IMG/VR virus record: IMGVR_UViG_3300048924_000120
Location: 1-29,425 of that record
DNA: 29,425 nt
Direction: 5' to 3' (one strand)
DNA from: a virus
The translations under genes and the position numbers were made by a program. Shown here piece by piece: positions 5,166 through 13,507 of the stretch. How positions within the stretch are numbered: the first letter of the stretch is position 1; each line of letters starts with the position of its first letter. The notes under the pieces were generated by a model that was given only the letters and a program-made list of their open reading frames with translations, had not been told where the DNA came from and searched no databases.

Positions 5166-5227
5166 AATCCAAAATCATTAGTTTAGATTATAATTGGAAT
5201 ACAAAAATGTGGAATGGGTGATTGAAC

Positions 5228-5962
5228 ATGGGGTTTTCATCTGAATTTAAGATGTTTTTTGATGAAATAAAAGCATTTTGTGACTTTCATCATAATAAAG
5301 AGATTTGGTTTCGGGGCCAAACATGTGACAAGCCTTTGAACTCCGGTTTATTTAGGATTGACCAGCTTAAAGAGATTGAAGATAAAAAAAATTATGAAGA
5401 GACGGCATATCGTAGATTTATAAGTCTTGGTCATCCTTTTTTAAATGGTGAGAAAGACTGGGAACTTCTATTTATTATGCAACATCATGGAGTAAAGACA
5501 AGACTGTTGGACTGGTCACCATCTCTTTTAACAGCTCTATTTTTTGCTACACAAAAAAATGAAGCACCTGTACTCTGGATGTTGCACCCCAGAAAACTTA
5601 ATAAAAAATGCGCAGGTGAGTATACCGTATTTTCAATGCCCATGATAGTCTCCTATGAGCGGTACATTATGACACCAAATCGTCTTTCATTTGGAACGGC
5701 AGCAATCTTCCCAACAAGAAATACCACACGCCAAGTAATTCAACAGGGTGTGTTTACAGTCCAAGGAGACGGTAACATACCGCTTGAGGAAGAATGTAAT
5801 GGTGCTTTAATTCGCGAAAGTATACTGAAGAAAATCGAAATTCCAGAATCCTTATTTGAAGAGATTAGATACTTTTTGAAACTCAACAATATTACTCAGT
5901 TCACTATGTATCCGGATTTAGATGGTCTTAGTAATCATATACATGATGCGTATTTGGAATGA
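5228..5962 (+). CDS. FRG-domain protein, candidate defence/exclusion cargo
   Basis: A 244-residue protein with an FRG domain, named after its FRG motif: WFRGQ at residues 27-31, and the second signature HHGVKTRLLDWS at about 86-97, followed by LTALFFATQ. FRG proteins occur widely in mobile elements, and some act in abortive anti-phage defence; the biochemical activity of the family is not settled. There is no signal peptide or membrane helix. The gene is AT-rich compared with its neighbours and lies between two terminators (5142-5165 and 6087-6111), which is the layout of an independent cargo gene. A TATAAT at 5189-5194 may be its -10 box, but no good -35 is seen. The start is ATG 5228 with GGGTG 7 bp upstream; TTG 5222 is an alternative. 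Confidence 0.82.
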   Translation: MGFSSEFKMFFDEIKAFCDFHHNKEIWFRGQTCDKPLNSGLFRIDQLKEIEDKKNYEETAYRRFISLGHPFLNGEKDWELLFIMQHHGVKTRLLDWSPSLLTALFFATQKNEAPVLWMLHPRKLNKKCAGEYTVFSMPMIVSYERYIMTPNRLSFGTAAIFPTRNTTRQVIQQGVFTVQGDGNIPLEEECNGALIRESILKKIEIPESLFEEIRYFLKLNNITQFTMYPDLDGLSNHIHDAYLE

Positions 5963-7712: not shown

Positions 7713-7750
7713 TTGTCGAATCATGATCAATTAAAGGAGTGAATATTTAG

Positions 7751-8284
7751 ATGGATATGTTATTCAACTTTAAAGAATTTAAGAATTTAACGCTAAATAA
7801 GTTTTTATCAGGGTCTTTATTTATAAGTATTGTTATTTACTTAACAGATTTTTTTTATCCGGATGTCTATCTAGGTTTTGTTCAAGCAATGAAGTATTTT
7901 GCTAAGAAGATTGAATTTAATGCTTGGGCGGGTATTATTCCTGTTTGTAAAATCGTAATAGAGGCATCTTTATACTTGAGTATTCTAATTCTGTTGTTTT
8001 TATTTATTTCCAGAATGACAATTTGGAGTGAATTTAAACAACAGTCACTATCGTATACTCTAATTGAACAACTATTCATGTTAAACTTGAATATAACCTT
8101 TTTTTCTGTTTTATCATATTTAAACATTATACTATTCTATCGAATTCTTGGAGCAGAATGGAAGGGAACGATACATTCTGTCGTTGTGTGTTGTGTGTGT
8201 TTGTTTTTATACATTTTATTTTGGTTTTGGAGAATTAACTCTCTTAGTGAAATTAATGACGAGAATCTGAGCACTCATAATTGA
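7751..8284 (+). CDS. four-helix membrane protein, unknown cargo
   Basis: A 177-residue AT-rich gene for an integral membrane protein. Four hydrophobic segments are visible at about residues 18-36, 60-88, 103-130 and 138-163, separated by short charged loops; the ends are hydrophilic. There are no catalytic motifs and no signal peptide. An AAGGAG site is 11 bp before the ATG, and the gene ends in its own strong terminator that contains the stop codon, so it looks like an independently acquired cargo gene. A role in superinfection exclusion or lysogenic conversion is possible but not shown. It is not holin-like in size or position. Confidence 0.7.
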   Translation: MDMLFNFKEFKNLTLNKFLSGSLFISIVIYLTDFFYPDVYLGFVQAMKYFAKKIEFNAWAGIIPVCKIVIEASLYLSILILLFLFISRMTIWSEFKQQSLSYTLIEQLFMLNLNITFFSVLSYLNIILFYRILGAEWKGTIHSVVVCCVCLFLYILFWFWRINSLSEINDENLSTHN

Positions 8285-10260: not shown

Positions 10261-11553
10261 ATGAGAGTTGAAGCGGTGCCGATAAGTCAACTAAGACGCA
10301 ATGATTGGAATCCCAATGAAATAGATAATCGTCGGTTCGAATCACTTGTGGCCAGTATTCGAAAACATGGCGTATTGCAGCCTATACTGGTGCGTTCCGA
10401 CATGACAATAGTTAAGGGCGAGAAGCGCTGGAAGGCAGCAAAAGAAGCGGGCTTACAAGAGTTACTGGCGGTTGTAGTTGAAAGTAGCGAGGAAGAATCT
10501 AAGCTGTTAACCGTCAGCCTGAGCAATTTACGCGGGCGAACAAACGAGGAATTGTTGGCTTCGCTAATTGGGGAATTATCACAGCATTTCTCAATTGCAG
10601 ATATAGCGATACAAACTGGTTTTGCTGTTGAAGAGCTTGACGATCTGCTTGCTGGTTTACCAACAGACACTGACATGGATGAACCAGTAACGGATGATGG
10701 ATTTGATGTCCAGCGTGCTCTAGATGAAATCAAGGAACCGGAGACGAGGCGCGGGGATGTGTGGCAACTAGGCCGGCACCGCTTGGTGTGTGGAGATGCG
10801 ACCAAGCCTGATGATGTTGCACTTTTAATGGACGGGGCTAAAGCAGCGCTGGTCGTTACTGATCCACCTTATAATGTGGCCGTTGAGAGTGTTTCAGAGC
10901 GTTTGGCCGCTGATGGCCGTAGCAGCATAATGAACGACAACATGCCCGCTGAGGACTTCGCGGGCTTTTTGCATTCCGTTTTTTCCAACTATGCAGTGGT
11001 GATGCAGCCAACTGCAGCTATATATGTATTTCATCCTTCGTCCTACCAGCGGGAGTTCGAGGATGCGATGAACGTAGCCGGCATCGTCGTCCGAACACAA
11101 TGCGTCTGGGTTAAGAATGCAGCCACCTTCGGCTGGGCACAGTACCGCTTTAAACATGAGCCGGTCTTTTATGCCCACCTGAAGGGCAAAGCTCCTGCCT
11201 GGTACGGTGATCGGACACAGACAACGGTATGGAAGGCTGGCCTGCCTGTTGAGGACCCGCTGCCTGAGACAGTATGGGAGGTTTCGAGGGGTGATGTGAA
11301 CAAGTACGTCCATCCTACTCAAAAACCTCTTGATCTGTTGGCCATTCCAATTAAGAATAGCAGCCAGCGTGGTGACGAGGTTGTCGATTTCTTTGGCGGC
11401 AGTGGTTCAACGCTTATGACATGTGAGCAGATGGACCGGACATGCCGGACTTTGGAATTGGACCCGATTTTCTGTGATGTAATTAAGAAACGTTTCCTGG
11501 AGAGTACTGGTATTGAGCCAGTCCTGTTGCATCGGGCTGAACCCGTAGCATAG
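10261..11553 (+). CDS. ParB-like domain fused to an N6-adenine/N4-cytosine DNA methyltransferase
   Basis: A 430-residue two-domain protein. Residues about 1-135 are a ParB-like domain (VPISQLRRNDWNPNE, HGVLQPILV, KGEKRWKAA). Residues about 155-425 are an amino-methyltransferase: motif IV DPPY at D201-Y204 comes before the SAM motif DFFGGSGS at 376-383, the beta-class order, with the HPTQKPLDL segment between. It starts directly at the stop of the C5 methyltransferase gene (TAAATG), so the three genes 8678-11553 form one operon. The two ParB-like domains are clearly different sequences. It modifies adenine or cytosine amino groups; the site is unknown. Confidence 0.92.
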   Translation: MRVEAVPISQLRRNDWNPNEIDNRRFESLVASIRKHGVLQPILVRSDMTIVKGEKRWKAAKEAGLQELLAVVVESSEEESKLLTVSLSNLRGRTNEELLASLIGELSQHFSIADIAIQTGFAVEELDDLLAGLPTDTDMDEPVTDDGFDVQRALDEIKEPETRRGDVWQLGRHRLVCGDATKPDDVALLMDGAKAALVVTDPPYNVAVESVSERLAADGRSSIMNDNMPAEDFAGFLHSVFSNYAVVMQPTAAIYVFHPSSYQREFEDAMNVAGIVVRTQCVWVKNAATFGWAQYRFKHEPVFYAHLKGKAPAWYGDRTQTTVWKAGLPVEDPLPETVWEVSRGDVNKYVHPTQKPLDLLAIPIKNSSQRGDEVVDFFGGSGSTLMTCEQMDRTCRTLELDPIFCDVIKKRFLESTGIEPVLLHRAEPVA

Positions 11554-11559
11554 GAAAAA

Positions 11560-11691
11560 GGAGGACGCGCTAACGTCCTCCCCCCCAATCCAGGGTATCC
11601 CCCGGCTGAGATAGCGGCCCGCCACGCGTGGCATTTTGCAGACATCCGCTATCTCGCATTCCAGTATATAGGAAAGCCGAGGGATACGACA
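11560..11691 (+). promoter_or_regulatory. three-way-junction leader RNA that covers a ribosome binding site
   Basis: Stems, all read directly: P0 GGAGGACG (11560-11567)/CGTCCTCC (11574-11581); P1 11595-11607 with 11675-11687 (12 of 13 pairs); P2 GAGATAGCGG (11608-11617)/CCGCTATCTC (11646-11655), a perfect 10 bp, enclosing the palindrome GCCACGCGTGGC (11621-11632); P4 TTCC (11659-11662)/GGAA (11671-11674). P1 and P2 abut, P4 ends exactly where the P1 3' strand begins, giving a three-way junction. The GAGGG ribosome site of the next gene (11679-11683) is inside P1. A DNA function such as a packaging site is an alternative. Confidence 0.6.
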
Positions 11692-11910
11692 ATGGGAACA
11701 GACAACGAACACCAAGATGCATTACTACAACGTGAGATAGAGATCGTCGAGGGAATCCTCGAATCCAAGGCACAGTACCGAAAGATTGTTAAGGCAGGAA
11801 TCGCACAGTGGGTTAAAGACCTACAGGCTGGAAATATAAAAATGCAGACGGTCCAGGACTTGGATCGTCTGATTGAGTTGGATATAAAGCTTCAAAAGGA
11901 TGAATTGTAA
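11692..11910 (+). CDS. small helical phage protein, 72 aa, under the leader RNA
   Basis: A 72-residue, highly charged, all-helical protein (REIEIVEGILESKAQYRKIV, then DLDRLIELDIKLQKDEL) with no recognised domain. The ATG at 11692 lies 8 bp after GAGGG, which is itself paired in the upstream structured element (11560-11691). It is the last plus-strand phage gene before the secreted cargo gene and the terminase small subunit, so it could be a packaging or late regulatory protein; this is only context. Confidence 0.65.
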   Translation: MGTDNEHQDALLQREIEIVEGILESKAQYRKIVKAGIAQWVKDLQAGNIKMQTVQDLDRLIELDIKLQKDEL

Positions 11911-12055
11911 AAGCATATAATAATCTTGCTAGTTGATGCATAAATATGGATTTATTAAACAATATTACGATATTATTGTAAGAAAAATTAAAAACATGGA
12001 ATCTTTTAGTAGAATGAGGTGGTAGTTTAATATACAAATATAGGAGGAATAAGCT

Positions 12056-12556
12056 TTGAAGAAAAAACATTTTATTGTACCGGCCTTGGCTCTGGGTCTA
12101 ATAGGGGGAGCTATTGCAGTACCCAATGCGATTTTTGCAGATTCAGATGTTGCTGTAACTGATTCTGCAACATCGACTACGGTGACTCAAGATGCTGGTA
12201 AAACAACTACTGGTGACCATGTCATTACTCCACAAGCTACTGATGGACAAATTGTCGATCGTCCAGTAGCTGGATTTAATGATTCTGCTGATTTTGACAT
12301 TAAAGGAGGATATGGATACGTAAGACTGTACTTGAGAAATACAGGAGACACTACTATATCCTTTACCGTAAATCAGGGAAGTGTATCTGGTGCGGAAAAG
12401 TACAGTGGAACAGTAAAACCCGGTAAAACATTCGATGAAATATTAAATAAAAGCAAGGCGTGGTCCTCAGGAAAATTTTATGTTAGTTTAAGTAGTGGTT
12501 CTGGCTCCATGTCTGGAAAGCTCGGAGTTCGGACTAGTACTAATACGAATTTTTAA
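12056..12556 (+). CDS. secreted beta-rich protein, lysogenic-conversion cargo
   Basis: A 166-residue protein with a Sec signal peptide: positive start (MKKKHF), hydrophobic core (IVPALALGLIGGAIAV), and a likely cut after IFA (residue 28). The mature part begins with a Thr/Ser/Asp-rich linker (about 30-65) and then a beta-strand-rich domain with alternating hydrophobic residues (GYGYVRLYLRNTGDTTISFTV...) ending KLGVRTST. It has no cysteines and no recognised enzymatic motif; it looks like a small sandwich-fold extracellular protein. The start is TTG 12056, 8 bp after AGGAGGA. The gene and its 145 bp of upstream DNA are AT-rich, and it has its own terminator, so it was probably acquired separately. 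Confidence 0.8.
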   Translation: MKKKHFIVPALALGLIGGAIAVPNAIFADSDVAVTDSATSTTVTQDAGKTTTGDHVITPQATDGQIVDRPVAGFNDSADFDIKGGYGYVRLYLRNTGDTTISFTVNQGSVSGAEKYSGTVKPGKTFDEILNKSKAWSSGKFYVSLSSGSGSMSGKLGVRTSTNTNF

Positions 12557-12572
12557 ATATAATTGCTGGGAA

Positions 12573-12599
12573 AGCGAGCCTATGAGGCTCGCTTTTTTT
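12573..12599 (+). terminator. rho-independent terminator of the secreted protein gene
   Basis: AGCGAGCC (12573-12580) and GGCTCGCT (12586-12593), a perfect 8-bp stem with a TATGA loop, then seven T. It insulates the terminase operon from the cargo gene. Confidence 0.9.
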
Positions 12600-12622
12600 G
12601 TTGGGGGTGGTGATTGTGTAGC

Positions 12623-13507
12623 ATGGCAAGAGAGCGAAGTCCTGAGCGGGACAAGGCAAAACAGATGTGGCTGGAGAGCGACGGAACGATGAAGTTAAAA
12701 GACATCGCCGCCGCTCTTTCTATTCCTGAAGGCAGGGTCCGCAAATGGAAGTCTATTGACTGCTGGCAGGATGAATTGAAAGGGAACGTTTTTGCTTCCT
12801 CCAATGGGAACGTTCCAAATGGAACGAAAGGGAACGCTCCTAACCCAAGGGGAGCGCCAAAGGGGAACAAGAACGCTGTTGGCAATCGCGGCGGTGCTCC
12901 CCCAGGTAACCAAAACGCCAAGGGAAATAGTGGTGGGCCGGGTGGTCCTTTTCGTAATAAAAAGGCCCTCAAGACAGGGATGTATGAAACTATCTTTCTG
13001 GATACGTTGGAGGAAGACGAGCAAGAGCTGTTTGATCAGATTGATACTTCCCCTTTGGCCCAGCTCAACGAACAGCTTATCATGCTGTCCCTCCAAGAAC
13101 GGCGACACATGCGCCGGGTCAAGCAGCTTGAAGCTGGCCTGACCGACGAGGAAAAGAAGATCAAGCAGGAGCTGCACCAGCGTAAGGACAAGGTTCCTTA
13201 CACTAGCCCCAAAACGGGTAAGCAAATCAATCTGTCTGTTGAAACCGAAGGTATGAAGGTCACAGAGATCACGACCGTAACTACTTCCAAATTGGATAAG
13301 ATTTTGAAACAAGAGGAAGCGCTGGTTAAAACCCGTGACAAGAAGCTTCGGGTTATTAATCTTATTGCCAGCTTGCAGCAGGAGGAAGAAAAGCTGGAGA
13401 TAGCTCGTGAACGGCTGGAGTTGGAGAAGCGCAAGTTGTTAGGTTATGGCGGTCCGGAAGGGGATGAAGGCGATGACGACGATGACGAGGAAGATGACGA
13501 ATGGTAA
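12623..13507 (+). CDS. terS: terminase small subunit
   Basis: A 294-residue DNA-recognition subunit of the packaging motor. The N-terminus has a helix-turn-helix (KAKQMWLESDGTMKLKDIAA, then SIPEGRVRKWK), typical of the PBSX/YqaS type; residues about 54-115 are G/N/P-rich with repeated GN-K/Q-NA units, also usual for this group; a helical region follows and the last 20 residues are almost all D and E. Start ATG 12623 with a G-rich site. It overlaps the large subunit gene by 7 bp. Four GGAACG copies lie in the coding DNA at 12783-12836 and may be the packaging site. Confidence 0.85.
   Translation: MARERSPERDKAKQMWLESDGTMKLKDIAAALSIPEGRVRKWKSIDCWQDELKGNVFASSNGNVPNGTKGNAPNPRGAPKGNKNAVGNRGGAPPGNQNAKGNSGGPGGPFRNKKALKTGMYETIFLDTLEEDEQELFDQIDTSPLAQLNEQLIMLSLQERRHMRRVKQLEAGLTDEEKKIKQELHQRKDKVPYTSPKTGKQINLSVETEGMKVTEITTVTTSKLDKILKQEEALVKTRDKKLRVINLIASLQQEEEKLEIARERLELEKRKLLGYGGPEGDEGDDDDDEEDDEW
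12783..12836 (+). repeat. GGAACG cluster inside terS, candidate packaging site
   Basis: GGAACG occurs at 12783, 12807, 12821 and 12831; the second copy extends to the palindrome GGAACGTTCC (12807-12816). They partly reflect Gly-Asn codons, but four identical hexamers in 54 bp, with the same codon choice, also fit a site bound by the small subunit. Confidence 0.35.

Follow-up and report, generated by a model that had tools for sequence, protein, structure and literature searches.

The interval between two genes in the window, by which we mean the whole stretch of DNA analysed here (a virus record of 29,425 bases), appears to encode two overlapping RNAs rather than a single structured leader. 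We consider it likely that these form a cis-antisense pair, in which a folded leader meets a leftward sRNA whose pairing controls the output of phrog_1476 protein. The element is bounded on one side by the gene for a ParB-domain DNA methyltransferase (10261-11553), whose stop codon abuts it, and on the other by the plus-strand gene of a 72-aa protein of no assigned function (11692-11910; phrog_1476, match at E = 6e-27), which is the constant partner of the RNA. The rightward transcript would fold into a three-way junction with the Shine-Dalgarno (SD) sequence of the phrog_1476 gene locked in stem P1. A leftward promoter, with its -10 box over stem P4 and its -35 box over the start codon, would make an sRNA of about 101 nt (minus strand, 11555-11655, predicted to start at 11655 and to end near 11555). 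Its three stem-loops would follow in the order SL1 (corresponding to P2/P3), SL2 and the terminator SL3, which would reach as far as the upstream gene's stop codon. By pairing with the leader, the sRNA would most likely determine how much phrog_1476 protein is made, its gene standing at the head of the packaging genes, either by removing the anti-SD arm and freeing the SD or by targeting the leader to RNase III. That both transcripts exist and meet is what we infer from the signals in the sequence.

A preliminary description of this DNA had assigned four stems, namely P1, P2, P4 and an upstream hairpin at 11560-11581, to one rightward RNA. All four are found at the positions it gave, and all are included in the minimum-energy fold of 11550-11700, which at -62.8 kcal/mol lies well below dinucleotide shuffles of the same interval (-43.6 ± 3.8; z = -5.0; 0 of 200 as good). 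The compensatory changes that it looked for in homologues also exist: across 47 distinct homologues, 14 of the 25 plus-strand pairs have both sides changed (shuffled control 7.7 ± 1.4, 0 of 500), with 8 of 11 pairs in P1, 3 of 10 in P2 and 3 of 4 in P4. We found no pattern of homologues that keep the gene and lose the stems. The assignment of all four stems to one rightward RNA is nevertheless not supported, because the 11560-11581 hairpin reads as a minus-strand terminator, P4 overlaps the leftward promoter and P2/P3 forms the first stem-loop of the leftward sRNA. The one-strand reading was only half right: the structured leader with its buried SD stands, and a ligand-binding riboswitch or a thermometer is unnecessary.

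Which strand's RNA folds can be told from the direction of wobble, since G.U pairs are tolerated only on the folding strand and appear as A.C mismatches on the opposite one. Judged by covariation and wobble together, the plus-strand leader appears real, alongside the predicted leftward RNA. P1 joins an anti-SD arm (11595-11606), whose complement in the sRNA is the SL2 region, to a 3' arm (11676-11687) containing the SD motif GAGGG (11679-11683), so the SD of the gene at 11692 does sit in P1 of a conserved, structured plus-strand leader, as had been proposed. The inner four pairs of P1, read on the plus strand, contain 33 G.U against 5 A.C; a DNA cruciform would show no wobble bias. The 3' arm lies outside the sRNA, within the promoter spacer, and its pairing is therefore explained only by a plus-strand transcript. 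A C.A mismatch of P1 at 11602/11680 is conserved, the A being part of GAGGG. The P2 stem (11608-11617/11646-11655) and its inner hairpin, together 11608-11655, serve both strands, as P2 of the leader and as SL1 of the sRNA. P2 is perfect on both strands and paired in 100% of cells across the 47 homologues, and in the Bacillus copies L156 and L158 both of its arms are wholly different in sequence. For P3, MAFFT moves the centre of the stem by one position between groups. The P4 hairpin of the leader (11660-11674, plus strand) overlaps the leftward -10 box and gives wobble counts of 24 and 29, which do not decide a strand.

How might the sRNA act on this leader? Lying opposite it from 11655 to 11555, the sRNA is complementary to it by overlap, and the complementarity stops about 20 nt before the SD, covering the anti-SD arm and not the SD. 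In a folding calculation, which ignores kinetics and RNases, the SD of the window has a mean unpaired probability of 0.20 within the intact leader, which rises to 0.65 once the stretch that pairs with the sRNA is blocked; over 99 copies the median moves from 0.20 to 0.52 under the same blocking. This modelling suggests that the sRNA opens the site; RNase III cleavage triggered by the duplex, or repression, may be the outcome instead. The geometry would favour opening or marking for RNase III, a direction of effect that we regard as uncertain.

The sRNA has a predicted promoter and intrinsic terminator of its own. Its stretch folds to -55.2 kcal/mol on the minus strand versus -38.6 kcal/mol on the plus strand, and double changes affect 12 of its 23 pairs (shuffles 5.9 ± 1.3). 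A covariance model built from 34 sequences scores the window, a member of the training set, at 100 bits, and scores the untrained copies of B054, LP041, phiEf11, phiFL3A, Lysinibacillus, Bacillus and Parageobacillus at 40-60 bits. Untrained matches in B054, LP041, phiEf11, phiFL3A, JGon-2020a, L155, L156, L220, L245 and L042 have E values from about 2e-14 to 1e-7, and all covariance-model matches in untrained copies lie opposite the gene's strand.

The cassette is widespread in phages and prophages of Paenibacillus, Brevibacillus, Bacillus, Lysinibacillus, Lentibacillus, Parageobacillus, Listeria, Enterococcus and Latilactobacillus. Searches with the 72-aa protein recovered 42 loci in viral records and 104 relatives, of which 80 (overlapping the first set) were kept and aligned. 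They also recovered 42 loci in Paenibacillus, Brevibacillus, Bacillus, Lysinibacillus and Lentibacillus genomes. The distant relatives include the Listeria phages B054 and PSU-VKH-LP041, the Enterococcus phages phiEf11 and phiFL3A/B, TMW 1.2272 P1 (Latilactobacillus) and JGon-2020a (Parageobacillus). By the notes in its record, the phiEf11 gene also has a relative among the prophages of Enterococcus faecalis V583, a strain with published differential RNA-seq (PMC7724050). The RNA sits ahead of the phrog_1476 gene in nearly all loci found by protein. Searches that started from the RNA, one with a P2 pattern and one with the covariance model in 400 sampled Bacilli genomes (21 positive), placed a phrog_1476 gene 13-71 nt from the RNA in essentially every intact locus, and in all intact pattern-found loci with sufficient sequence. 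Among the loci that lack the gene, L067 is truncated and L270 is a covariance-model match with no recognised gene beside it, whereas L098 was rejected as a chance pattern match and L252 as a decayed remnant with a transposon-like insertion. Where the sequence suffices, the terminase small subunit gene terS follows about 0.24-2.5 kb beyond the phrog_1476 gene, with few exceptions.

This strict linkage with a single downstream gene speaks against the strongest rival reading, by which the sRNA works chiefly in trans, with its targets among host transcripts, other phage transcripts or a protein, and its overlap with the leader is secondary. The anatomy of three stem-loops would suit a trans-acting RNA, as would its strongly conserved 5' sequence GAGAUAG and the LexA-like box that accompanies the promoter in many lineages. 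The same 5' sequence is replaced, however, in phiEf11 and in Bacillus copies, and the covariation of P1 couples the sRNA sequence to the SD region; on balance we think action chiefly in trans unlikely. The Gram-positive LexA consensus is CGAACRNRYGTTYC (PMC2248561), and matches to it begin 45-47 nt to the right of the sRNA start, immediately upstream of the -35 box, in Brevibacillus, Lysinibacillus, Lentibacillus, Bacillus and Listeria copies. The box, of the form [CG][AG]AACRNRYGTTC, occupies offsets +45 to +59, counted rightward from that start, and falls within the gene's 5' end (L245, L250, L247, L155, L154, L156, L190, L101 and other loci); it is not found at that position in the Paenibacillus group, the window included.

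A more speculative version of the cis-antisense pair, which we would hold with little confidence, makes the antisense RNA an activator. It would combine the stripping of the anti-SD arm with pairing through a palindromic loop that would also permit dimers, LexA control in many lineages and structural selection on both strands. If true, an activating, LexA-governed sRNA would tie the expression of the packaging genes to prophage induction.

Could the plus-strand leader stand alone, as a riboswitch, a thermometer or a protein-bound RNA, with the minus-strand signals accidental? P1, with its plus-strand wobble and buried SD, is what such a leader would present, but two hairpins with minus-strand wobble are mismatched on the plus strand. 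The first is SL3 (11560-11581, minus strand), the upstream hairpin of the preliminary description, which we read as an intrinsic terminator with its T-run encoded by A5 at 11555-11559. Among 34 aligned minus-strand sequences, 8 of its 10 pairs are changed on both sides, and read on the minus strand it holds 31 G.U cells against 3 A.C. Read on the plus strand, more than 30 unique helices have an interior A.C against about 3 with G.U; these are the safer counts, since a count over all copies includes a C.A beside the terminator loop. On the plus strand the homopolymer run stands before the hairpin instead of after it, and an A-run is there in all lineages, so that the minus strand reads a hairpin and then a T-run, as in a terminator. 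A pattern scan flags a minus-strand terminator in B054, phiEf11 and L155 and misses it in the window and L044 copies, probably because the T-run is paired with a run of G ahead of the stem. The second hairpin, SL2 (CCGGGG-GAUA-CCCUGG, 11590-11605, minus strand), recurs in the folds of seven lineages; across copies read on the plus strand it shows 35 A.C against 4 G.U, and it forms on the minus strand only.

The leftward promoter weighs against a plus-strand leader alone in the same way. Its -10 box, the hexamer TATACT (11663-11668, minus strand), lies 7 nt ahead of the predicted start, and the -35 box, TTGTCG (11687-11692, minus strand), lies at a spacer of 18 over the start codon of the gene at 11692. 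Of 77 distinct copies, 75 have a TANNNT hexamer 5-7 nt from where P2 ends on its outer side, 69 of them at exactly 7 nt. The spacing holds both for copies with the box in the P4 loop and for those with it in the P4 stem, behaviour that would fit a -10 box and not an RNA loop. Most copies have a TTG-type -35 box 17-18 nt beyond it, over the start codon; in L057, L058 and L088 the start codon is shifted, yet the CAAT that forms the -35 box is kept. An independent scan of 11480-11800 returned a single promoter, TTGTCG-N18-TATACT, where 0.2 were expected, and scanning placed promoters at the same site in B054, the Latilactobacillus phage L044 (TTGTCA-N17-TATAAT), the Bacillus copy L156 and the Lysinibacillus copy L155. 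When the leader was checked for a riboswitch core, its conserved unpaired bases coincided with this promoter. With an invariant -10 box at fixed spacing and an A-run ahead of the hairpin in every lineage, we find a leader alone quite improbable. Observations that count against the antisense pair that we prefer include the weak -35 box of some Paenibacillus copies, the copies missed by the terminator scan, the palindromic tip of P2 and, in several loci, a plus-strand terminator just upstream of the element. No convincing candidate for a rightward promoter was found inside the element.

A small gene with a folded leader and an overlapping antisense RNA is also the usual anatomy of a type I toxin-antitoxin module, with the 72-aa protein as toxin and the sRNA as antitoxin. 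The protein, however, is charged and soluble-looking with two predicted helices (sequence and an AlphaFold2 model, pLDDT 79, for which six rows from public phage records were left out of the input alignment), and by sequence and model it lacks the short hydrophobic membrane peptide seen in type I toxins. It has no match in Pfam, and comparison of the model with the PDB and with viral structures gave no match with E below 0.001. The pairs txpA/RatA and bsrG/SR4 are sense/antisense pairs of Gram-positive prophages with structured mRNAs, a likeness that the present element is predicted to share, but it differs in having no toxin-like peptide. Both are named in PMC3871023 and PMC7724050. As the gene also nearly always adjoins terS, we judge a type I module very unlikely.

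The inner hairpin enclosed by P2 carries at its tip a perfect 12-nt palindrome, GCCACGCGTGGC (11621-11632, both strands), with the self-complementary tetraloop CGCG. The tip is palindromic in most lineages, though its sequence varies (tetraloops GGCC, CGCG, GCGC and TGCA), with exceptions in L006, L138, L155 and L166. A plain antisense pair does not explain this palindrome; it would be compatible with dimer formation, whether kissing or extended, or with an operator bound by a protein. The preliminary description offered a DNA-level packaging site as its alternative. Such a site, or a regulatory one (cos, pac or a cruciform, with the palindrome bound by a dimeric protein), would suit the palindromic core of changing sequence and the position beside terS in almost all loci (here terS at 12614-13507, plus strand, and terL from 13501, so the site does adjoin the terminase genes), but is the least credible of the readings, since it leaves the nested covariation, strand-specific wobble, promoter and terminator unexplained and the database records of B054 and phiEf11 end about 270 and 990 bp past the gene, outside the element. 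A packaging cut inside the element likewise finds no support in these record ends.

By analogy, the predicted antisense pair would be most like the CopA-type plasmid antisense RNAs and OOP, sar and aQ in its mode of action. Plasmid copy-control RNAs such as CopA/CopT of R1 and RNAIII of pIP501 are complementary to the leader of their target and have their own promoter and terminator; CopA-type RNAs set the yield of the plasmid rep gene, and RNA I of ColE1 is of similar size with three stem-loops. The element is predicted to share this arrangement, an antisense RNA with a promoter and a terminator of its own that is complementary to the controlled gene's leader. Unlike in those systems, its target is by annotation not a replication initiator (phrog_1476, no Pfam match), its sRNA covers the anti-SD arm but ends before reaching the SD and could thus open the site, and its tip loop is palindromic. 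RNAII of pMV158 acts on translation (PMC4485353). Lambda OOP (cII), P22 sar (ant) and lambda aQ (Q) are short phage antisense RNAs with phage mRNA targets (PMC12197685). The present element would resemble them in this respect, whereas it lies beside terS and not in a lysogeny switch, is broadly conserved in Gram-positive phages and has structure on both strands; we found no family relation. The pRNA of phi29 is another structured RNA that contains a three-way junction and is associated with genes for DNA packaging. The present element differs from it in lacking an Rfam match, in lying opposite a coding leader and in belonging to phages that use TerS/TerL.

The RNA family is apparently undescribed so far: a search of the main text of articles found no report of it. 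In Rfam, the window has no relevant match either at the gathering score or with the E limit relaxed to 5, and the divergent homologues match nothing except tRNAs, in agreement with the earlier view that no named class fits. To our knowledge, little is known of post-transcriptional control of the packaging and late region in Gram-positive temperate phages, and the element supplies a specific candidate regulator at the head of these genes. Conserved structure on both strands, separable by the direction of wobble, also makes it a clean case of overlapping RNA genes.

Both flanks of the element resemble cargo sites, given the variable gap before terS and upstream neighbours that differ between loci. 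The gap between the phrog_1476 gene and terS ranges from about 0.24 to 2.5 kb across loci L045-L124 and is filled here (11910-12614) by the gene of a secreted-looking protein of no assigned function (phrog_33200, 12056-12556). Upstream, L012, L020, L030, L044, L156 and L192 have a plus-strand intrinsic terminator immediately before the minus-strand one, in the style of convergent genes, and in other loci the stop codon of the upstream gene touches the element. In L165, a prophage remnant, the sRNA and gene are present twice in decaying form (5814-5911 and 7744-7838), the copies lying about 1.9 kb from each other on either side of an unrelated insert. Elsewhere in the window, the open reading frame at 5222-5962 has a WFRGQ motif and may encode an FRG-domain-like protein.
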